A DNA stretch of 36,980 nucleotides from Lachnospiraceae bacterium (GTDB taxonomy: Bacteria; Bacillota; Clostridia; Lachnospirales; Lachnospiraceae). Position 1 is the first letter of the stretch; each line of letters opens with the position of its first letter. Position numbers and translations under genes: made by a program. This document shows, in pieces, positions 138 to 10,527 of this stretch. The stretch lies in assembly GCA_021770755.1 (NCBI GenBank), contig JAETQI010000043.1:1-36980 (forward strand). Direction: 5' to 3'. The notes beneath the pieces are model-generated. The model was not told where the DNA came from, made no database searches, and saw nothing but the letters and a program-made list of their open reading frames with translations.

Positions 138-896
138 ATGGCCAACAAAGACTTTTCAAATAAATTAAAAGATTTACGCTTGAAAGCTGGTTATAGTCAA
201 AAAGATGTATATGAACATTTCAAAATCCCTCAATCAACATTTAGTTCATGGGAAGTTGGAAAGTCGGAACCATCTGGAGAAATGCTGATAAAATTATGTG
301 AATTTTATAAATGCGATATGGTAAAAGAATTTTCATCAGACAACGATTTAACTTATAAAGAATGGAGTGTTATTGAAAGCTATCGTTCTCTTGATGATAT
401 AGGAAAAAATTATATTGATTACGAACTGAATAGAGAAATTGACAGGATGAAAGAACTGCAGAAACAATCTGAGTACATAAAACCTTTAGAAACCACTGAA
501 CATAACAACAATAAAGTTTCAAACATTGACATGCGCCTGATCAACTACTACTATCGTGTTGCGTCCGCAGGTGCAGGGCAGATTATCTTCGATATGCCGC
601 CCACAAAACGTATTGAGATACCAAACACACCTGAGTACCGAAAAGTCGATTATGCGATCGGAGTAAACGGAAATAGTATGGAGCCCTTGTATCATGATGG
701 AGATATACTCCTTGTAGAAATGAGAGATGATGTTGAAATTGGTGAGGTTGGCATATTTAGGGTAAACGGTGAAAGCTTTGTGAAAAAACTAGGCGAGACA
801 GAACTTATTTCCCTTAATCCTGCTGCCAGGAATATCCCGTTAAACGAAAGTGCGGGGTGCATGGGTAAGGTAATTGGGAAACTTTCACAGGATTAA
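138..896 (+). CDS. XRE-family S24 (LexA/CI-like) repressor
   Basis: A 252-aa phage-type repressor. Residues 8-60 form an HTH_3/XRE DNA-binding domain (KLKDLRLKAGYSQKDVYEHF, then the recognition helix QSTFSSWEVG). Residues 135-250 form an S24 peptidase fold: a cleavage site VASAGAG with the A144-G145 bond, the catalytic serine in GNSMEP (Ser180) and the catalytic lysine in FVKKL (Lys216 or 217). Such proteins repress mobile-element genes and cleave themselves on RecA activation during DNA damage. The start follows GGGAGG at 8-nt spacing. It is the first gene of an AT-rich block ending at a tRNA, so it is probably the control gene of the integrated element; the genes it represses are not in the window. 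The family is certain, the regulon is inferred. Confidence 0.9.
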   Translation: MANKDFSNKLKDLRLKAGYSQKDVYEHFKIPQSTFSSWEVGKSEPSGEMLIKLCEFYKCDMVKEFSSDNDLTYKEWSVIESYRSLDDIGKNYIDYELNREIDRMKELQKQSEYIKPLETTEHNNNKVSNIDMRLINYYYRVASAGAGQIIFDMPPTKRIEIPNTPEYRKVDYAIGVNGNSMEPLYHDGDILLVEMRDDVEIGEVGIFRVNGESFVKKLGETELISLNPAARNIPLNESAGCMGKVIGKLSQD

Positions 897-934
897 ATAA
901 AAATTGAAAAATCAAACGCTAAGGAAGAACTACA

Positions 935-2089
935 ATGGGATTTTCAGAAGATATCAACGCTTTGGCAGAACGTTTTTCTACAGTAGGAAATAACGTACTA
1001 ACTGAAGAGGCAACAAAAATGTCACTCATACTGCCCTTTTTTCAGATTCTGGGATACGACGTTTTTAATCCAACGGAATTTTGCCCAGAATATACTGCTG
1101 ATGTGGGCATCAAAAAAGGTGAAAAGGTCGATTATGCAATACTAGTAAACAACGAACCAGTCATATTAATAGAGGCGAAATCCATAACAAAAAAGCTCGA
1201 CAAGCACAGTTCTCAACTTTTTCGTTACTTTGTCACCACGCCAGCCAAATTTGCGATTTTGACAAACGGACTCAACTATAAAATATATACTGATCTTGAA
1301 GAACCTAATAAAATGGACAAAGAACCTTTCATAGAATTTGATCTGCTCAATCTCAAAGATGGACAGATTGAGCAAATAGAAAAATTTCATAAAAAATTTC
1401 TTGATGTTGAAGACATATTAAACACTGCCTCTATATTGAAATACAATACACTCTTTAAAAAATATATTGAACAGCAAATAAATAACCCTTCCGGCGATTT
1501 TGTAAAGCTCTTTTTGCAGCCTTTTTATAAAGGCGCCAAAACACAGGCCGTTATTGAAAAATTTAAACCCATACTGAAAAACTCGTTAAAAGAATATATA
1601 AATGAAACTGTCAATAGTAAAATCAAATTTGCACTTGACAATACCTCCTCTGTGCCTGATGAGGAACGCATTTCTACAGATCGCGAATGGGAAGCTCTCA
1701 CTTTCATTAAAGACATATTAAAGGGAACACTGAATACCGATGATATAACTCATAAGCAGACCGGCTCATACCTAGCAATCCTTTATAAAAACAACACACG
1801 AAAATGGATCTGCAGGATTAATTTGTATTCTTCCCAAAAAACTCTTATACTGCCAGACGAAAACAAAAAGGAACAGAGGCATCCTATAGACAAGATCAAC
1901 GATATCCATGATTTTGCATCTGATATCATTGCTGTCGCCAAACGGTACCTTGAACCGGCTCCCACTGAAAAGAACCCGGATTGTCTCTACACAAAATGGG
2001 GCGTCTATGAAATGCCACAGCCTTACAAAATAAGCTTGCAGAGAGGTCCGCGACATGACTTAAAAACTGCCCAATATTACAAACACTGA
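935..2089 (+). CDS. HsdR N-terminal-domain-like nuclease protein
   Basis: A 384-aa protein resembling the stand-alone 'type I restriction enzyme R protein N-terminal domain' family. The first 150 residues hold a PD-(D/E)xK nuclease core: a glutamate-containing helix (LTEEATKMSLILPFFQ), the Asp of KVDYAI and the E-x-K of VILIEAK. The C-terminal half (about 230-360) is unassigned. There is no ATPase domain and no HsdM or HsdS nearby, so this is not a complete type I system. The coding end is odd: the frame stops at TGA 2087-2089 but stays open for 41 more codons to 2213-2215, and the sequence around the stop is repeated after the Uma2 gene, where the same codon is CGA. The protein may therefore be slightly truncated. 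Confidence 0.75.
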   Translation: MGFSEDINALAERFSTVGNNVLTEEATKMSLILPFFQILGYDVFNPTEFCPEYTADVGIKKGEKVDYAILVNNEPVILIEAKSITKKLDKHSSQLFRYFVTTPAKFAILTNGLNYKIYTDLEEPNKMDKEPFIEFDLLNLKDGQIEQIEKFHKKFLDVEDILNTASILKYNTLFKKYIEQQINNPSGDFVKLFLQPFYKGAKTQAVIEKFKPILKNSLKEYINETVNSKIKFALDNTSSVPDEERISTDREWEALTFIKDILKGTLNTDDITHKQTGSYLAILYKNNTRKWICRINLYSSQKTLILPDENKKEQRHPIDKINDIHDFASDIIAVAKRYLEPAPTEKNPDCLYTKWGVYEMPQPYKISLQRGPRHDLKTAQYYKH

Positions 2090-2103
2090 ACAACTTTTGA
2101 TAG
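2062..2103 (+). repeat. Diverged direct repeat, copy A (with 2833-2874)
   Basis: Forty-two bases spanning the 3' end of the HsdR-N-like gene match 2833-2874 at 34 of 42 positions by my count; seven of the eight differences are transitions. In the frame of the upstream gene this copy reads K-T-A-Q-Y-Y-K-H-stop-T-T-F-D. Both copies begin shortly before or after the stop codon of a PD-(D/E)xK nuclease gene. The remaining intergenic bases up to 2260 contain no gene that I recognise. Confidence 0.7.
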
Positions 2104-2260
2104 TGCTATGATCGGCGGAAGAGCCAAAAAGAAACTGATAAGAAACGGCACACTTATTTTATATACATACATGGATAAACTAAATCAAAATTCCGAAGTT
2201 AGAATTCAGCTTTGAATCATTTGAAAGTTAGCAATATTTAAAGAAAGTGAGAAATTACCT

Positions 2261-2806
2261 ATGGCATTAGCACAGGAAAGAACTTATACAACAGATGATA
2301 TCTACGCCCTGCCAGACGGCCAGAGGGCAGAACTGATTGACGGGCAGATGTATATGATGGCGCCGCCAATGCGGCTGCACCAAAAGCTGATCACGGAGTT
2401 TGTATCTGCTATTCATCAATACATTAAAAATCATAACGGCGACTGTGAAGTCTATCCGGCACCATTTGCCGTATTTCTAAATAAAGATGACCGAAACTAC
2501 GTTGAACCTGACATTTCCGTTATCTGCGACAAAAGCAAGCTGGACGAGAGAGGCTGTAACGGCGCTCCTGACTGGATCATTGAGATTACTTCTCCGTCTA
2601 ATCCGGAAAATGACTATAACATCAAGCTTTTTAAATACCGTACCGCCGGTGTTCGTGAATATTGGATTGTAAACCCGCACACGCAGACTGTTACAGTGTT
2701 CGACTTTGAAAAAGGAAAAAAATCAAATCAGTATAACTTTAATGATAAAGTACCTGTCTGCATTTACGAAGATTTGAACATTACTATTTCAGATTTGCTC
2801 TCGTAA
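2261..2806 (+). CDS. Uma2-family (DUF820) PD-(D/E)xK endonuclease
   Basis: A 181-aa protein with the Uma2 layout over its full length: an N-terminal YTTDDIYALPDGQRAELIDG segment, a central VEPDISVICDKSKLDERGC strand-turn with the catalytic Asp, PDWIIEITSPSN carrying the E-x-(T/S) part of the nuclease motif, and the C-terminal KYRTAGVREYWIVNP. Uma2 proteins are putative restriction-like nucleases that are common in cyanobacteria and Firmicutes, and their biological role is not established. A weak GAAAGTGAGAAATTACCT precedes the ATG. The gene is noticeably richer in GC than its left neighbour. It sits between a nuclease-like gene and an integrase, which suggests mobile-element cargo. Confidence 0.88.
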   Translation: MALAQERTYTTDDIYALPDGQRAELIDGQMYMMAPPMRLHQKLITEFVSAIHQYIKNHNGDCEVYPAPFAVFLNKDDRNYVEPDISVICDKSKLDERGCNGAPDWIIEITSPSNPENDYNIKLFKYRTAGVREYWIVNPHTQTVTVFDFEKGKKSNQYNFNDKVPVCIYEDLNITISDLLS

Positions 2807-2811
2807 ACCGA

Positions 2812-2825
2812 TTGCGACGTCGCAA
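2812..2825. promoter_or_regulatory. Perfect 14-bp palindrome after the Uma2 stop
   Basis: TTGCGACGTCGCAA is its own reverse complement and begins 6 nt after the Uma2 stop codon. Without a loop it makes a poor terminator and looks more like a protein-binding site. It is 173 nt upstream of the integrase start, so an integrase or excision control site is possible. This is inference only. Confidence 0.4.
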
Positions 2826-2832
2826 CTAATGA

Positions 2833-2874
2833 AAAAACCGCCCAGTGTTACCAGCACCGAACGGCTTTTGATAG
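2833..2874 (+). repeat. Diverged direct repeat, copy B (with 2062-2103)
   Basis: Partner of copy A. In the frame that continues past the Uma2 stop it reads K-T-A-Q-C-Y-Q-H-R-T-A-F-D and stays open to the TAA at 2939-2941. In another frame it lies at the start of a 54-codon ORF (ATG 2829 to TGA 2991-2993) with no convincing ribosome-binding site; that ORF ends over the integrase's AAGGAGG. A 9-bp inverted repeat follows (2884-2892 with 2910-2918). Confidence 0.65.
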
Positions 2875-2997
2875 ATATCCTGAAGATGATACCTGTCTAC
2901 GAAAATATTGTATCATCTCCGGGAGCAGCCTGCAAGCGTAAAAATGCGCTGGCTGTTATTTTTATACACTTTTTAAGGTTTAAGGAGGAATGATACT

Positions 2998-4032
2998 ATG
3001 GCTACTGCAAAGAAGCTACCATCAGGCGCATACAGATGCTTGATCTTTGACCGCATGGAGGACGGCAAAAGGAAATACAAGTCTTTTACGGCCGCAACCA
3101 AAAAAGAGGCAGAGTACAAAGCTACACAGTACATAATGCAAAAAGAAGAACAGAAAAAAGCATTGCCGGAATATACCCTGTATGACGCCATCGGGAATTA
3201 CTGTGACCTGAAGAACAATGTACTTTCACCGTCAACGATCCGCGAATACCGCAGAGCACAAAATTATAATTACACAGACATCAAGGATATCAAGCTGAAC
3301 GAGATCACTAACGATGATATCCAGCGCTGGGTGAACACATTTGCCAAAGACCACAGCCCCAAGAGTACGAAGAATGCCTATGGACTGATCCGGGCCGTTC
3401 TGGATACCTTCGCGCCGGATATCCGTTTACGGATCACACTCCCCCAGGCTGTACCGCATAAATTATATGTGCCCTCTGACAGCGATATTAGGGCCGTAGT
3501 CGCGTATTTTAGCGAGAACGATAAAGATATGGAGCTTGCCGTTTATCTGGCCGCATTTGGCACGCTACGACGTTCTGAAGTATGCGGGCTGTACGCTGGG
3601 GACATTGATGGGAATACCATCACAATTCAGCGTGCTATGGTGGACAAAGGCAAAGACGAATGGGTGATTAAGACTACTAAGACAGTTTCCAGCACGCGCA
3701 CCGTTGAGATGCCACAGTTTGTAATAGATAAATGCCCAAAAGAGGGAAGGATTGTAAATCTCAATCCCGACCAGGTAACACACCGCTTTATGAGGGCGCT
3801 CCGACACCTTGATGTGCCCAGCTTTCGGTTTCACGACCTGCGGCACTATGCGGCATCTATAATGCACGCGATTGGCGTACCAGACCAGTACATCATGCAG
3901 CGTGGCGGCTGGTCATCCGACAAGACATTAAAGGCAATCTACCGGGGTACAATTAAAGATTACGAGAAAAAATATACCGACATGACGCTATCCCATTTTG
4001 AGGATATGCATTATGAAATAGAAAAAGCCTAG
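2998..4032 (+). CDS. int: Phage/ICE-type tyrosine integrase
   Basis: A 344-aa site-specific recombinase. Residues 1-45 match an AP2-like arm-binding domain, about 60-145 the SAM-like core-binding domain, and 155-340 the catalytic domain with Arg191/192 (GTLRRSEVCGL), Lys228, H279-x-x-R282 (FHDLRH), Trp305 in the second-His position (GGWSS) and nucleophile Tyr315 (KAIYRG). All catalytic residues are present, so it could be active. AAGGAGG precedes the ATG with 8-nt spacing. It lies about 390 bp from the 3' end of tRNA-Gly(GCC), the usual arrangement for an element integrated in a tRNA gene, with the element body to the left. The opposite attachment site is outside the window. Confidence 0.93.
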   Translation: MATAKKLPSGAYRCLIFDRMEDGKRKYKSFTAATKKEAEYKATQYIMQKEEQKKALPEYTLYDAIGNYCDLKNNVLSPSTIREYRRAQNYNYTDIKDIKLNEITNDDIQRWVNTFAKDHSPKSTKNAYGLIRAVLDTFAPDIRLRITLPQAVPHKLYVPSDSDIRAVVAYFSENDKDMELAVYLAAFGTLRRSEVCGLYAGDIDGNTITIQRAMVDKGKDEWVIKTTKTVSSTRTVEMPQFVIDKCPKEGRIVNLNPDQVTHRFMRALRHLDVPSFRFHDLRHYAASIMHAIGVPDQYIMQRGGWSSDKTLKAIYRGTIKDYEKKYTDMTLSHFEDMHYEIEKA

Positions 4033-5783: not shown

Positions 5784-5910
5784 ACCGTTTTCCCCCACTC
5801 TTTTCCTACAGACCCTCAAAAATCATATTTATTTTATCACACTTCCTGATGAAATGCCACTTCAATCGGATCGGGGAATGACCTTCTCCCCTGCACGGGA
5901 ATGTGCTCCC

Positions 5911-5952
5911 AAAAAAGAATGGCAGCCTTAAGGCTGCCCATACTTTTTTTTC
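5911..5952. terminator. Bidirectional terminator downstream of flagellin
   Basis: GGCAGCCTTAAGGCTGCC (5921-5938) is a perfect hairpin, with six A (5911-5916) on one side and an eight-T run (5945-5952) on the other. It most likely ends the flagellin transcript, which would then carry a 3' UTR of about 200 nt. Confidence 0.75.
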
Positions 5953-6125
5953 ACATGATCAGAGCTTTCAGTAGCTCGTGACCCCAATTGATTTCTTTTA
6001 ACGGCAGAAACCGCCCTTAGGACGGCTTCTGCGTGCACGCGTCACCCAAAAGGACATGCCAGCCAGTGCTGACGGGTGCTGGCGCGCGGGCAAGGAATAC
6101 TTCCCTGCCCGATCGTTATGGCAGA
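5953..6125 (-). other. Structured 3' region of the flagellin transcript, no gene
   Basis: No coding sequence seen. Three GC-rich hairpins lie in a row: 6004-6032 (GCAGAA/TTCTGC with inner CCG/CGG and CCT/AGG), 6058-6083 (GCCAGC/GCTGGC) and 6087-6111 (CGGGCA/TGCCCG). They precede the terminator on the flagellin strand and may stabilise the 3' end of this abundant mRNA. No known riboswitch pattern recognised. Confidence 0.5.
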
Positions 6126-7994
6126 TTAACCTAAGAGGCTAAGTACACCCTGGTTACCCTGGTTTGCCTGCGCGAGCATGGACTGCCCTGCCTGCGAAAG
6201 GATATTGGCATTTGAGTATTTCACCATCTCTGTAGCCATATCGGTATCACGGATCGCGCTCTCTGCCGATGTCGTGTTCTCCACTACGTTATCCAGGTTG
6301 TTGATCGTGTGCTCTAAGCGATTCTGGACTGCACCGAGAAGTGAACGCTGTGCGGATACGGTCGCAACTGCATCCGAGATCGCATCGATCGCATATGTTG
6401 CCGAGCTTCCGTCATCGTCAACGACATTGAGGTTCTTCACGCCAAGTCCTGCGGAGGACATCGTCTTGATCTCCACACCGATCTTGTTGGTCATGTCTGC
6501 ATCCGCACCTACATGGAGTGCAAATGTCAGAGAATTGTCAATCTCAACCTTACCCTGTGTGATCTCAAATGTACCATCACCATTATTCTTCACCGATGAG
6601 CGTTTATCAGCATCTGCACCTATATTGTTGGCAGTTTCCAGCTCTTTTGCCATCATTTCATACGCTTTCTTTAAAGAAATGTCTGTCTTGGATTCAGATG
6701 CGGAAGGAACCGCATAATAATAACTAGCGTCAACTTTTACATATTGTCCTTCCTTCACTCTTTCCGCAATATCATCCGCTGTCATCTTTGTGCCGTCCGC
6801 TTTTGTCGTAACACCTACTGTAAAGGTTTCTGCCGTGGCATTTGCACTGTCATAAAACTCAACTGACTTTCCATCTGCCAGCGCCTTAATAGCATCCTGG
6901 ATATCAGATACTGTCTGAATTCCCTGATTCGATAAAGATCCCTTTTCACCTGTTGCTGCAATTGTATATGTGTCCCCCGCCACAGCCGTATACGCCGTAT
7001 CGCTTGCCGTGTTTCCCTCACTCTTATAAAATCCGGCTGTTCCGTACTTTACACCATTCAAAAATGCATTTTTAGTAGTGTCAACGTAAGTATACTCCAC
7101 GCCATCCTTATCGACTACTTTGTCACCTGCAGCCCAGGTAGGAACGGCATGCGCGGCTGTTTTTGACATATCAATCGTATCACTGCCTACAAGCGTGACA
7201 GTGCCACCGCCTACAGTATTCTTATCTGTCAGTGTAGCGCCCTCTTTTACTGTCAACGTGATCGCATTTCCTGCAGAATCTTTTACAGCAATTCCTGCTG
7301 CGGCTGACATACCGCCTGCTGCCACGGCAGTAGTTACTGTATACTTTACGCCATCCTGCTCGATCACATCACCGACCGCCGCTGTTGCTGTTTTCATATT
7401 CAGATAGTCATTTGTCCGCTGTGATCCGACGATATTATAATCTGTCCCGCCAATCTTTACCGTATCGCCTGCCTTGAGCGCATCCGCCGTAAACTTCGAC
7501 TTGCCGTTTCCGACTGTATCAAGCTTCCCGGCAAGGCCAGCATCATGCGCTTCCAGTGTCTTTGTTCCCTTTGTACCGTCGCCCTTCAACAGATAGGTCT
7601 CATTGAACTTGGTCGTCTCCGCGACACGGTCGATCTCTGTTGTCAACTGTGAGATCTCGTCCTGGATCGTCTGGCGGTCGGATACGGAGTTTGTGCCGTT
7701 TGCCGCCTTGTTTGCCAGCTCGTTCATGCGCTGTAACATGTCATGAACTTCTGTCAGCGCGCCTTCTGCTGTCTGCACTGCACTGATGCCGTCCTCAGCG
7801 TTTGCCGATGCCTGAGTCAGACCCCTGATCTGCTTTCTCATCTTCTCTGAGATCGAGAGCCCTGCTGCGTCGTCCGCCGCGCGGTTTACCTTGTAGCCTG
7901 ATGACAGCTTCTCTGACGACTTGGATAACTGACCCGTCGTGATACCTAACATTCTGTTGGAATTCATCGCTCTAAGATTGTGTTGTACTACCAT
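6126..7994 (-). CDS. fliC: Flagellin with large variable domain
   Basis: A 622-aa flagellar filament subunit, exported by the flagellar type III apparatus. The D0/D1 N-terminus (MVVQHNLRAMNSNRML, residues 1-160) and C-terminus (last 95 residues, ending NQGVLSLLG) are conserved; the middle 350 residues are a Thr/Ala/Gly-rich hypervariable surface domain, which makes it larger than the usual 270-500 aa. The TLR5-contact motif LQRMNEL with Arg89, Leu93 and Glu113 is intact. The start at 7994 has GGAGG at 6-nt spacing and begins exactly at the conserved N-terminus; the frame is open 41 codons further but that part is leader. It follows csrA by 197 nt with no promoter that I can see between, so it is probably co-transcribed with csrA and controlled by the invertible promoter. 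Confidence 0.96.
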   Translation of the reverse strand: MVVQHNLRAMNSNRMLGITTGQLSKSSEKLSSGYKVNRAADDAAGLSISEKMRKQIRGLTQASANAEDGISAVQTAEGALTEVHDMLQRMNELANKAANGTNSVSDRQTIQDEISQLTTEIDRVAETTKFNETYLLKGDGTKGTKTLEAHDAGLAGKLDTVGNGKSKFTADALKAGDTVKIGGTDYNIVGSQRTNDYLNMKTATAAVGDVIEQDGVKYTVTTAVAAGGMSAAAGIAVKDSAGNAITLTVKEGATLTDKNTVGGGTVTLVGSDTIDMSKTAAHAVPTWAAGDKVVDKDGVEYTYVDTTKNAFLNGVKYGTAGFYKSEGNTASDTAYTAVAGDTYTIAATGEKGSLSNQGIQTVSDIQDAIKALADGKSVEFYDSANATAETFTVGVTTKADGTKMTADDIAERVKEGQYVKVDASYYYAVPSASESKTDISLKKAYEMMAKELETANNIGADADKRSSVKNNGDGTFEITQGKVEIDNSLTFALHVGADADMTNKIGVEIKTMSSAGLGVKNLNVVDDDGSSATYAIDAISDAVATVSAQRSLLGAVQNRLEHTINNLDNVVENTTSAESAIRDTDMATEMVKYSNANILSQAGQSMLAQANQGNQGVLSLLG

Positions 7995-8191
7995 AATATA
8001 CCTCCGTGTAATCCGGAGAAACGCTGTGTTTCCCCATTGCTGGGCATTCCGTTGCCCGCCTTTTGTTGCCATATTCAGTTGTTTTCGCGGGATTGATGCC
8101 CATACGGCACCGCCCACGATCTATAATATCCGCAGACCTCCACACCTCTGGCGCCTTTACGGCATAGACGCCTGCGGTTATTACCGTCTCA
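7995..8191 (-). promoter_or_regulatory. Flagellin leader with CsrA-type sites
   Basis: The RNA between csrA and flagellin contains two hairpins. Distal (8057-8042): stem GGGCA/TGCCC with loop ACGGAA, placing GGA in the loop as CsrA prefers. Proximal (8018-8002): stem CTCCG/CGGAG with loop GATTACA, which buries the Shine-Dalgarno GGAGG (8005-8001); the strand TACACGGAGGT resembles the CsrA SELEX consensus. The two GGA motifs are 45 nt apart. CsrA represses hag translation this way in Bacillus subtilis. Further GGA motifs (TGTGGAGG, TGCGGATA) lie upstream. No sigma-28 or clear sigma-A promoter seen here. Confidence 0.7.
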
Positions 8192-8398
8192 TCAAAGGCG
8201 ATCGCCCCCGATGCCGGACTCGGCATTTACTGCCAGGGCTGCCGCTCTCTTTTCGATCGCCTTGCCTCTCGCCACGTTTACTTCTTTTGGAGCATCGATC
8301 ATCAGTTTGATCGCCCTGTCGTTTCCGCCCAGAAATGTGATCCTGACATCTTTTCCCACCATCAGATACTCGTCTTTGTTTACAGAAAGTCTAAGCAT
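8192..8398 (-). CDS. csrA: CsrA translational regulator
   Basis: A 68-aa RNA-binding protein of the CsrA/RsmA family. It aligns end to end with the fold: the N-terminal MLRLSVNKDEYLMVGKDV strand pair, APKEV at 36-40, and the RNA-contact residue Arg44 exactly where E. coli CsrA has it (NVAR44). The helix and tail run about ten residues longer than the E. coli protein. AAGGAGG precedes the ATG at 8-nt spacing. It is immediately upstream of flagellin on the same strand, as is common in Clostridia; in Bacillus it represses flagellin translation until FliW sequesters it, but no fliW is in this window. Its start is 58 nt from the left inversion site, and a CATGAC/GTCATG inverted repeat (8419-8442) sits in its leader. 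Confidence 0.93.
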   Translation of the reverse strand: MLRLSVNKDEYLMVGKDVRITFLGGNDRAIKLMIDAPKEVNVARGKAIEKRAAALAVNAESGIGGDRL

Positions 8399-8455
8399 GA
8401 TCCGAACCTCCTTGTCTTCATGACTATTACAGGATTGTCATGTGCCGCCTTGCCC

Positions 8456-8484
8456 ATGCAACATTTTGTATAAATTGTTGCATC
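8456..8484 (+). repeat. Left inversion site (IRL)
   Basis: Imperfect 28-bp palindrome: arms ATGCAACA (8456-8463) and TGTTGCAT (8476-8483), centre TTTGTATAAA. Compared with the reverse complement of the right site it differs at a single base (8464), and the shared bases extend to 8484. The asymmetric centre GTAT gives the site a direction. Confidence 0.8.
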
Positions 8485-8486
8485 AT

Positions 8487-8529
8487 CAGCCCATTCGTAG
8501 TAAGGTAATACCGTACTATAAACGGGCTG
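8487..8529. promoter_or_regulatory. Large symmetric hairpin/palindrome before the recombinase
   Basis: A 43-base symmetrical structure: CAGCCC (8487-8492) with GGGCTG (8524-8529), a 5x5 internal loop, then TAGTA/TACTA and GGT/ACC closing on AAT. The inner 21 bp (8498-8518) is a palindrome with 9 of 10 pairs and could be an operator; as RNA it would be a strong leader hairpin. A second hairpin, AGGAACT/AGTTCCT (8541-8558), follows. I see no good sigma-A promoter for the recombinase in this interval. Confidence 0.5.
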
Positions 8530-8588
8530 AAGGAGCAGCAAGGAACTGAACAGTTCCTCAAAACCATTTCAAGGAAAGGATCATTATT

Positions 8589-9188
8589 ATGAGTACAACA
8601 CAACCGATCAGAGATTTACAGAAACTGCAGGATTTCAAGAACTATTATCAGAATACCAAGCCAAATCTGCGCAATTATGCCATTATCATCCTGGGGCTGA
8701 ACACAGCCCTGCGCATCAGCGATATCCTAAATTTGCCCTACGATCAGGTATTTCAGAATGGGCGCGTCCAGGAACACATCACGGTCAGGGAGGGCAAGAC
8801 CGGAAAAGAGAACAGGATCCTATTAAATAAAGAAGTGCGGCGCACACTCGCAAGATACTGCGACGAACTGACCAGAACAAAGATGTATAAAGAGGGAAAT
8901 CCCTATCTTTTTCCAAGTCCAAAGAAACCATGCGCGGCGATCTCGCGCTCACAGGCATACCGCATGATCACTTCCGCGGCCAGGGCGGTCGGCATTGACG
9001 GGCATATTAGCTGCCACTCCCTGCGCAAGACCTTTGGATATCACGCGTGGAAACAGGGAAGCGATCCTGTCGTGATCATGGTCATCTTTAACCATTCTTC
9101 CCTTTCCATCACCAAGCGCTACCTGTGTATCGACCAGGACGACAAAGATGATGTGTACCGCAGCATCTACCAGCGTACTGCTGCCTGA
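8589..9188 (+). CDS. Short tyrosine recombinase (FimB/RecV-like invertase)
   Basis: A 199-aa recombinase consisting of little more than the catalytic domain, the size of FimB/FimE and of C. difficile RecV rather than of phage integrases. The full active site is present: Arg42 (TALRISDIL), Lys70 (REGKTGK), His143 and Arg146 (CHSLRKTFGYH), His169 (FNHSS) and nucleophile Tyr178 (KRYLCI). AAGGAAAGGA precedes the ATG at 8-nt spacing. The gene lies inside the segment bounded by the two inverted sites and next to the flagellin operon, so it is the obvious candidate to invert the segment. It has no Xis-like partner or arm-binding domain. The chemistry is certain; the substrate is inferred from position. 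Confidence 0.9.
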   Translation: MSTTQPIRDLQKLQDFKNYYQNTKPNLRNYAIIILGLNTALRISDILNLPYDQVFQNGRVQEHITVREGKTGKENRILLNKEVRRTLARYCDELTRTKMYKEGNPYLFPSPKKPCAAISRSQAYRMITSAARAVGIDGHISCHSLRKTFGYHAWKQGSDPVVIMVIFNHSSLSITKRYLCIDQDDKDDVYRSIYQRTAA

Positions 9189-9336
9189 CGGCGCAAAGCA
9201 GTATCATTCTTATCTGAAAAAATCTGCCATGGCCAAACACAGGTCACGGTTTTTTGTGAACCGCACGATGACGGCAGCCGCAGCCACCCAAAACTGTATG
9301 AGGGATTTTGCAATTGAATAAATTTGGAGAAAAGAC

Positions 9337-9363
9337 TAAAGTTTTGGAAATTCCCACCGATAT
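9337..9363 (+). promoter_or_regulatory. Sigma-28 (SigD/FliA) promoter inside the invertible segment
   Basis: TAAA at 9337-9340, a 15-bp spacer (9341-9355), then ACCGATAT at 9356-9363. The SigD consensus is TAAA-N15-GCCGATAT, so all but one base match. It reads right, through IRR, with a start expected near 9370. In this orientation the only gene downstream is the AraC-type regulator; after inversion it would drive csrA and flagellin. Confidence 0.8.
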
Positions 9364-9375
9364 ATATAATGTAAG

Positions 9376-9415
9376 CAAGGGATGCAACAATTTATACAAA
9401 TTGTTGCATCCCTTG
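9376..9415 (+). repeat. Right inversion site (IRR)
   Basis: A 40-bp palindrome with one mismatched pair: 18-bp perfect arms ending at CAAGGGATGC (9376-9385) and GCATCCCTTG (9406-9415), centre ATAC. The 28-bp core is 9382-9409. Its reverse complement matches IRL at 27 of 28 positions, including the central GTAT. In the present orientation it would form a strong hairpin at the very 5' end of the sigma-28 transcript. The rest of 9189-9336 holds no gene. Confidence 0.8.
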
Positions 9416-9524
9416 TTATGTTTGCACTTTTTTTGTTTTTTATGCGCTGCTGACTATAGAAAACGCTAATCTTATCTATATTTTCCTGCGCTTTGCCGTA
9501 TGTGACATAATTTAAAAATTCCGC

Positions 9525-9553
9525 TGGAAAAACTTATTTGCACATGATATAAT
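9525..9553 (+). promoter_or_regulatory. Sigma-A promoter of the AraC-type gene
   Basis: TGGAAA (9525-9530), 17-bp spacer, TATAAT (9548-9553). Transcription would start near 9560. This argues against translation from the ATG at 9565 and for the one at 9625. Confidence 0.65.
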
Positions 9554-9624
9554 AGCTAGACAATATGAAACCGTTCAACATTTTATCAGATTCCAGTCAA
9601 AAGACTGCCAGGAGGCACTGCACC

Positions 9625-10527
9625 ATGTACAACCTGTTTGAGCCGGGAGATCTGCTGAACTCCCCCTATGAAGCTTTCCTGTTTGACACGGCAAAACACA
9701 GTTTTCCGATACGTTCACACTGGCATCATTACATGGAGATCATATTGATGCTCGAGGGGACTGCACTGATCGAGAGCGATCAGAAAAAATATCTGATGCA
9801 TCCCGGAGACATGGCCGCCCTTCCGCCAAAGAGCATCCATGCCATCTACAATGAACCCGGCGCGCAGGAGCACCTGGTCTATTATGTGATCAAATTTGAC
9901 CTGAACCGCTTCCGCGAGAACATCGGATATGTTCCCCAGCTCAAGAGTGCGGTTCTGCAGGCGATGGAGGATCCCGGCGTCTCCTTTTTCTTCTCCGCGC
10001 AGGAGCTTACAGGTTTTCCGGTTCTGGAATATGTGCGCGGCTGTGCGCGGGAAGCGCACGACAAGCATTACGGACACTATATGATCATGTACTCTTACCT
10101 CAACTGTATCCTGGTAAGTATGCTGCGCATCTGGCGCAAACACGGATTCACGCCCTCCTACGAGATCTCCCCGCCGTGCGGCAGTTCCATCGAGACCATC
10201 ACGGAGTACATCGACGCGCACTCCGACCAGCCGCTGAAAGTCGAGCAGCTCGCCGTGCGCTGCAATATGAGCTACTCCTTCTTCGCGAAACAGTTCCGCC
10301 AGATCTACGGGCGTTCGTGCAAGGAGTACATTGAGTATATCCGCGTCATCAAGACAGAGGACATGCTGCTCTTCACCGATTACGACATGACCTACATCAG
10401 CCAGGCTGCCGGTTTCTCCGACTGCAGCCACATGATCAAGACATTCCGGAAATACAAGAACATCACGCCGAAGCAGTTCCGCATGCAGAACACCAAGAAC
10501 CTGCGCGGACCCCTGCCCCATCCATAA
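9625..10527 (+). CDS. AraC-family regulator with cupin sensor domain
   Basis: A 300-aa transcription factor. Residues 20-120 form a cupin-type ligand pocket (FPIRSHWHHYMEIILMLEG, then GDMAALPPKSIHAIYN), and residues 195-295 the double helix-turn-helix of AraC/XylS proteins (VEQLAVRCNMSYSFFAKQF and ISQAAGFSDCSHMIKTF). Such proteins usually sense a sugar or related metabolite and act at a nearby operon. The start at 9625 is supported by AGGAGG at 9-nt spacing; the frame extends 20 codons upstream but without a ribosome-binding site and into the promoter. It stands alone between the inversion site and a terminator. In the drawn orientation the sigma-28 promoter also points at it, so its expression might vary with phase; that link is speculative. 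Confidence 0.9.
   Translation: MYNLFEPGDLLNSPYEAFLFDTAKHSFPIRSHWHHYMEIILMLEGTALIESDQKKYLMHPGDMAALPPKSIHAIYNEPGAQEHLVYYVIKFDLNRFRENIGYVPQLKSAVLQAMEDPGVSFFFSAQELTGFPVLEYVRGCAREAHDKHYGHYMIMYSYLNCILVSMLRIWRKHGFTPSYEISPPCGSSIETITEYIDAHSDQPLKVEQLAVRCNMSYSFFAKQFRQIYGRSCKEYIEYIRVIKTEDMLLFTDYDMTYISQAAGFSDCSHMIKTFRKYKNITPKQFRMQNTKNLRGPLPHP

Follow-up and report, generated by a model that had tools for sequence, protein, structure and literature searches.

The first 36,980 nucleotides of contig C2 in a 4.7-Mb draft genome of a Lachnospiraceae bacterium (hereafter the window, i.e., the whole stretch of DNA analyzed) raise the question of how a csrA-flagellin operon can be transcribed when the flagellar promoter beside it points the other way. 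An earlier note on this DNA had proposed an invertible sigma-28 promoter, served by a resident tyrosine recombinase and feeding csrA and flagellin, and comparison with related genomes supports that proposal. Judging from its sequence and those of its relatives, segment 8456-9409 is very probably a self-contained invertible promoter cassette. The recombinase would pair the two palindromic sites and exchange strands within their asymmetric centre of 6-7 bp; a segment of about 0.95 kb, recombinase gene included, would then invert. In the sequenced orientation (OFF), the promoter would fire outward and transcription is predicted to stop early in a hairpin at the far site. In the ON orientation, the promoter would come to lie upstream of csrA at a distance of about 97 nt, with transcription running via csrA into the flagellin gene. 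The features of the locus are listed in Table 1.

Table 1. Features of the csrA-flagellin locus and its putative promoter cassette (positions in the window).
Feature	Position	Strand	Remarks
Flagellin, 622 aa	6126..7994	-	Flagellin_N and Flagellin_C at the ends, frame open
Cassette CsrA paralog, 68 aa	8192..8398	-	Pfam PF02599
csrA leader, outside the segment	8399..8455	-	no promoter found
csrA-proximal recombination site, palindromic	8456..8483	.	asymmetric centre TGTATA
Tyrosine recombinase, 199 aa, small invertase	8589..9188	+	Pfam Phage_integrase E 3.3e-25, catalytic domain only
Sigma-28 promoter TAAA-N15-ACCGATAT (motif)	9337..9363	+	reads across the far site and out of the segment as presently oriented (OFF)
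Predicted OFF-state terminator, 19-pair hairpin of far site and complementary flanks	9375..9416	+	T-rich to ~9442
Far recombination site	9382..9409	.	same centre as the csrA-proximal site, inverted orientation

Both palindromic sites were recomputed with the same values as claimed before. They form a 29-nt inverted repeat (97%), and their cores match at 27 of 28 positions in inverted orientation (one mismatch) vs 25 of 28 in direct orientation (three mismatches). Since the site centres are asymmetric, inversion is the expected outcome of recombination. The csrA start lies 57 bp from the left site (58 bp according to the earlier note), and the sigma-28 motif is found 18 bp before the right site, facing away from flagellin as had been described. 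The loose sigma-28 pattern has no match in the window on the coding strand from the left site to flagellin. A sigma-70 scan of positions 7900-9620 gave three sites vs 3.2 in shuffles. Outside the segment, no promoter was found for the operon.

When up to three mismatches are allowed, the own genome (G000) has three matches to the site pattern, namely the left site, the far site and one at the end of contig C47. Contig C47 (positions 1-120; L158/L167) opens inside an apparent second cassette with a sigma-28 promoter, a site and complementary flanks. This third site of the genome has the centre ACAC instead of ATAC, and its flanks pair with altered bases (GAG/CTC instead of GGG/CCC). The remainder of this apparent half cassette was not found in the own assembly. 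The far-side neighbour is of the AraC type at the window and different at C47. An AraC-type flank as at the window is also present in locus L176 (genome G400, contig C106), which contains two tandem cassette-type csrA genes. Elsewhere in the window (138-4032), genes for an S24-type repressor, an HSDR_N protein, a Uma2 protein and a longer tyrosine integrase are possible remnants of a mobile element.

The resident protein has the full RKHRHY set that was attributed to it. All 120 homologs in the comparison keep R42, K73, H143, R146 and H169, and 119 keep Y178; K73 is one of two conserved lysines, either of which may be the catalytic one. With these residues (R-K-H-R-H/W-Y) and the catalytic domain it qualifies as a tyrosine recombinase, and the identity of a serine (Hin-type) invertase is out, since Pfam gives Phage_integrase only. 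At 199 aa and with scores of 73 and 76.5 bits (cut-offs, 335 and 330), it falls outside the Xer (XerC/XerD) equivalogs. It has weak matches to two ‘tyrosine-type DNA invertase’ models, which we take to be FimE and FimB. A PDB sequence search gave XerA/XerC/XerD types as top matches; pentatricopeptide matches in the same search were weaker than the Xer-type ones and were disregarded. The nearest named relatives are from Lachnospiraceae MAGs. Six pattern matches in a viral collection were not confirmed as relatives.

Homologs of the recombinase (E 1e-20) were found in 40 of 397 genomes of the family, own genome included, and in 24 of the 38 genomes of the own genus. A search of the order at E 1e-30 revealed homologs in 52 of 392 genomes (10 of these 52 in the own family), several of which encode many recombinase copies. 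The comparison set consisted of relatives’ loci from named genomes (80 of 149) together with fetched stretches. It contains 145 distinct recombinase genes, defined by a tblastn match of at least 150 aa with E < 1e-15 and collapsed on their middle 300 nt; L002, L003 and the loci retrieved with other queries (L141-L158, L199 on) are left out of this number. As the loci were collected via the recombinase, an association with csrA or flagellin is not built in. One of these two genes is nevertheless located within 1.5 kb, reading away from the recombinase, in 120 of the 145 (csrA in 115). The other 25 recombinase genes have neither in view, 12 of them near a contig end. Paired palindromic sites flank 92 of the 145 genes; the same search found none in the other 53, some of which have repeats by another search. 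Of another 25 loci, which came from the order search, 20 lack csrA and flagellin within the stretch examined. In other families of the order (L209, L210, L212-L215, L217-L228), homologs were observed whose examined stretch contains neither csrA nor flagellin nor a clear flanking repeat.

The promoter recurs in most of the site-paired loci. A strict sigma-28 motif directed outward and located inside the segment, at most 100 nt from one site, is present in 77 of 89 loci with one target, where 0.08 of 89 are expected from shuffled right ends (three of the 92 paired loci, with targets on both sides or none, were omitted). The motif lies downstream of the recombinase, as in the window, in 69 loci (class A) and upstream in eight loci with mostly GTAACAC-type sites (class B), and never at both positions. 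On the opposite strand, each segment end has the strict motif in 0 of 89 loci and the loose motif in one of 89. The spacing between promoter and site core is often about 21 nt. In 17 paired-site loci the TAAA pattern yielded no promoter; two of these, L049 and L107, contain a TTAA -35 element by eye. Between site and flagellin, the strict motif occurs in none of 84 loci. The loose motif occurs there in nine of the 84 vs 3.3 expected from shuffles (none in the window), and because of this excess a few relatives may own a second, outside promoter. The own genome has one match to FliA above the family cut-off (265 bits), and this sigma factor would be the one that uses the promoter.

The earlier note had suggested that relatives be compared for the alternative orientation, and both orientations were found. 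The state was read from the positions of promoter and operon, with two detections merged and L107 set OFF by eye. Among 120 cassettes, 76 are OFF, six are ON (L066, L068, L091, L097, L105, and L170) and 38 are unclassified. This 76:6 excess of OFF loci was observed among assembled genomes, many of them MAGs. The ON loci are scattered among OFF relatives, corresponding to six separate changes on the tree vs a mean of 5.9 with shuffled labels. The two orientations occur among species and also between paralogs of one genome, with the window’s own locus found in OFF only. Genome G428 encodes L170 (ON), its paralog L171 (OFF) and four other classable cassettes that are OFF (one of six ON), and in G429 all six classed cassettes are OFF. 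L170 and L171 are 92% identical in direct orientation over 1330 nt on the csrA side, 94% identical in inverted orientation over the segment (1001 nt) and again 93.5% identical in direct orientation over 62 nt of the far flank, with the breakpoints at the sites. The class B loci L075 (OFF) and L097 (ON) repeat this pattern with less identity (78% for the inverted segment, over 776 nt). Both have a deviant outer half-site beside csrA. The cassette has features of an inverton, i.e., a promoter between inverted repeats that can face or leave its target, and the evidence for inversion across relatives is strong but comparative.

It is unlikely that the window’s cassette is a fossil, which inverted in the family’s past and is now fixed OFF in this lineage with a silent flagellin. 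Such a history would fit the window’s close clade, in which all 14 classified loci are OFF (one more is unclassified), including that of G400, which shares the AraC flank. However, a dead switch should decay, whereas the window has retained its catalytic residues, site centres, promoter and hairpin intact, together with an open flagellin frame. The half cassette of C47, with another site centre and with flanks that pair via changed bases, likewise argues against fixation. We thus prefer a working promoter cassette, which the strain would still flip.

The recombination sites were also compared across loci. When flanks were paired without preselection, those belonging to a single locus shared an inverted repeat scoring at least 17 in 63% of 130 loci, vs 3% of 400 mismatched pairs; the overall similarity within the 92 site pairs, in contrast, is conditioned, since these were picked at no more than four mismatches. 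Tyrosine-recombinase strand exchange needs identical site centres. The central 6-7 bp (positions 9-14 of 22-nt cores or 9-15 of 23-nt cores) show zero differences within any of the 92 pairs, and mismatches are confined to the arms, mostly to the outer arm. The 92 loci display 73 distinct 8-nt centres. The central 8 nt are identical in 67 of 92 own pairs when inverted, in 0 of 92 when direct and in 47 of 4140 mismatched pairs. As the centres are identical within a locus and variable between loci, these data suggest that most cassettes are addressed separately. This makes it very unlikely that the sites act on other partners, through deletion or exchange between cassettes, rather than in simple local inversion: several cassettes per genome are on offer (seven recombinase matches in G428, the seventh, L191, cut by a contig end), but their centres mostly differ, the centre asymmetry gives inversion, and L170 and L171 differ by a clean inversion.

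The far site of the cassette may have a second function. The flank beyond it is T-rich and complementary to what directly follows the promoter, and the OFF transcript of the window is predicted to fold with a z of -7.2. The hairpin is missing from a simple terminator scan, and its T-rich run begins about 12 nt past the stem. We compared the far and csrA sides in 71 ON/OFF loci (two of 73 were dropped for too short outer flanks). Uninterrupted pairing beyond the site core has a mean of 8.3 on the far side vs 2.5 on the csrA side (longer in 69 loci, two ties), and the next 12 nt contain 7.2 vs 2.6 T (higher in 70 loci, one tie). The predicted hairpin is stronger on the far side in 67 loci and weaker in four, including the ON locus L170. 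The pairing is specific for the locus, with a mean of 8.3 for own flanks vs 3.3 with the far flanks of other loci; at least seven pairs are formed in 51 of the 71 combinations within a locus, in 746 of the 4970 mismatched ones and on none of the 71 csrA sides. In four of five ON loci, the far flank still pairs over at least seven bases with the promoter-side sequence, which is at the other segment end as assembled; the fifth, L091, has three pairs only (control level). Selection for an OFF state that is absent from the assembly is the simplest reading of this retained pairing, and our proposal is therefore that the far site, besides its part in recombination, is a predicted terminator, which would insulate the promoter when OFF. 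In Rfam, five matches over the far hairpin (positions 5800-9700 scanned) all scored below the gathering scores and were not taken as family members. The least likely alternative is a small mobile or selfish element that lies beside csrA-flagellin by chance, with a promoter serving the far-side neighbour: the 20 order-level loci without csrA or flagellin, the multi-copy genomes and the differing far-side neighbours of the window and C47 are in its favor, but csrA or flagellin accompanies 120 of 145 recombinase genes, the far flank makes a hairpin against the promoter, the promoter-to-core spacing is recurrent and the strict promoter is never found outside the segment.

The CsrA that would be switched together with flagellin falls in a divergent clade that is distinct from the housekeeping CsrAs. 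The own genome encodes a housekeeping csrA adjoining fliW in addition to the cassette csrA. The cassette protein scores 58.8 bits against PF02599 (cut-off 27) vs 90 bits for the housekeeping copy, and does not reach the cut-offs of the NCBIfam CsrA equivalogs. Within the genus, the scores of csrA fall in two groups (at least 83.8 bits and at most 65.2 bits). In a short alignment of 71 columns, 115 cassette CsrAs and 29 housekeeping CsrAs are on separate sides of a fully supported branch. The housekeeping proteins (29 of 30 loci) were picked by a pattern needing an early arginine, which makes the residue comparison partly circular; the gap in bit scores is independent of this pattern. A motif in the csrA leader was found with a loose pattern in 22 of 89 leaders.

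The earlier note had described a flagellar ON/OFF switch. This holds for one flagellin and the CsrA paralog, but not for the flagellum as a whole. The own genome has 18 Flagellin_N matches, of which 13 are nearly complete (including the one in the window), four are cut by contig ends and one is weak (64 bits) and maybe another filament protein. Some of the other flagellin genes are preceded by a sigma-28-like motif, with no recombinase homolog in the DNA examined there. With about 12 other complete flagellin genes, some with such motifs of their own, a switch of whole motility is out, and one flagellin among many would be expressed stochastically. Genomes G428 (L168-L171, L191) and G429 (L179-L183) contain six or more cassettes each with differing flagellins, and the six cassette flagellins of G428 differ chiefly in their middle parts. 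Two loci, L049 and L101, seem to have a Hin-like toggle layout. Here, the segment lies between two oppositely directed flagellins, at distances of about 140-220 nt from the sites, and no csrA was found at either locus. The flagellin pair of L049 is 79% identical, and that of L101 is alike at the ends only.

In Bacillus subtilis, flagellin expression is reported to be inhibited by CsrA (PMC3720852), so that an FljA-like role of the cassette CsrA is plausible by analogy. Taken together, gut Lachnospiraceae may carry a family of self-contained flagellin switches, each with its own recombinase and site centre, that flip independently and have a built-in OFF terminator. The CsrA paralog would act as an FljA-like translational repressor of other flagellins, turning ON would swap the filament antigen, and L049 and L101 would be direct toggles needing no repressor. 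We hold this joint reading tentatively, with somewhat less than even confidence. In the gut, the flagellins that commensal Lachnospiraceae produce are major immune antigens. If the reading is true, a widespread self-inverting promoter that chooses a flagellin would help to explain why many flagellin genes are kept and would make filament identity heritable yet reversible. The Hin system would also gain a counterpart based on a tyrosine recombinase, and CsrA paralogs a new role that can be tested.

In the Salmonella Hin/fljBA system, the recombinase gene lies inside the inverting segment, a promoter is located at one end, and the flagellin operon includes a second regulatory gene. The cassette shares this layout, as the earlier note had seen, but is built on a tyrosine instead of a serine recombinase and has a CsrA paralog in the place of FljA. 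Moreover, Hin inversion is reported to yield one of two flagellins (PMC8987985), whereas the cassette has in most loci one target, which is one of many flagellins and would be turned ON or OFF. The flg switch of Clostridioides difficile also combines a tyrosine recombinase (RecV) with flagellar phase variation in the Clostridia; it is located in the flgB 5′ UTR, contains no functional promoter and acts post-initiation via Rho, and RecV acts on several switches (PMC7446863, PMC5903667). The cassette, in contrast, has a promoter motif inside the segment and would invert the promoter itself, with the recombinase inside and an own site centre for each cassette. FimB and FimE of Escherichia coli are small tyrosine invertases with genes beside the fim segment. 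As in fimS, where a promoter is inverted (PMC7446863), a small tyrosine invertase would here invert a promoter; unlike in fimS, the recombinase is inside the segment, the sites are long and palindromic, the promoter is of the sigma-28 type and the target is flagellin. The cassette also resembles the invertons (invertible promoters) of gut bacteria in the PhaseFinder and PhaVa catalogues; inverton catalogues are mentioned in a 2025 review.

The main text of a flagellin promoter survey of Roseburia and Eubacterium contains neither ‘recombinase’ nor ‘phase vari’, and Roseburia, Eubacterium and Lachnospir are absent from the main text of a genome-wide inversion survey. The earlier note knew of no description of such a switch. 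This stands for the cassette, of which we found no published account in a partly accessible literature with thin coverage of subscription papers and preprints; it does not stand for flagellar switching by a tyrosine recombinase, which is already known from RecV (PMC7446863). The cassette architecture differs from that system, and versions of the cassette occur in many related gut bacteria.
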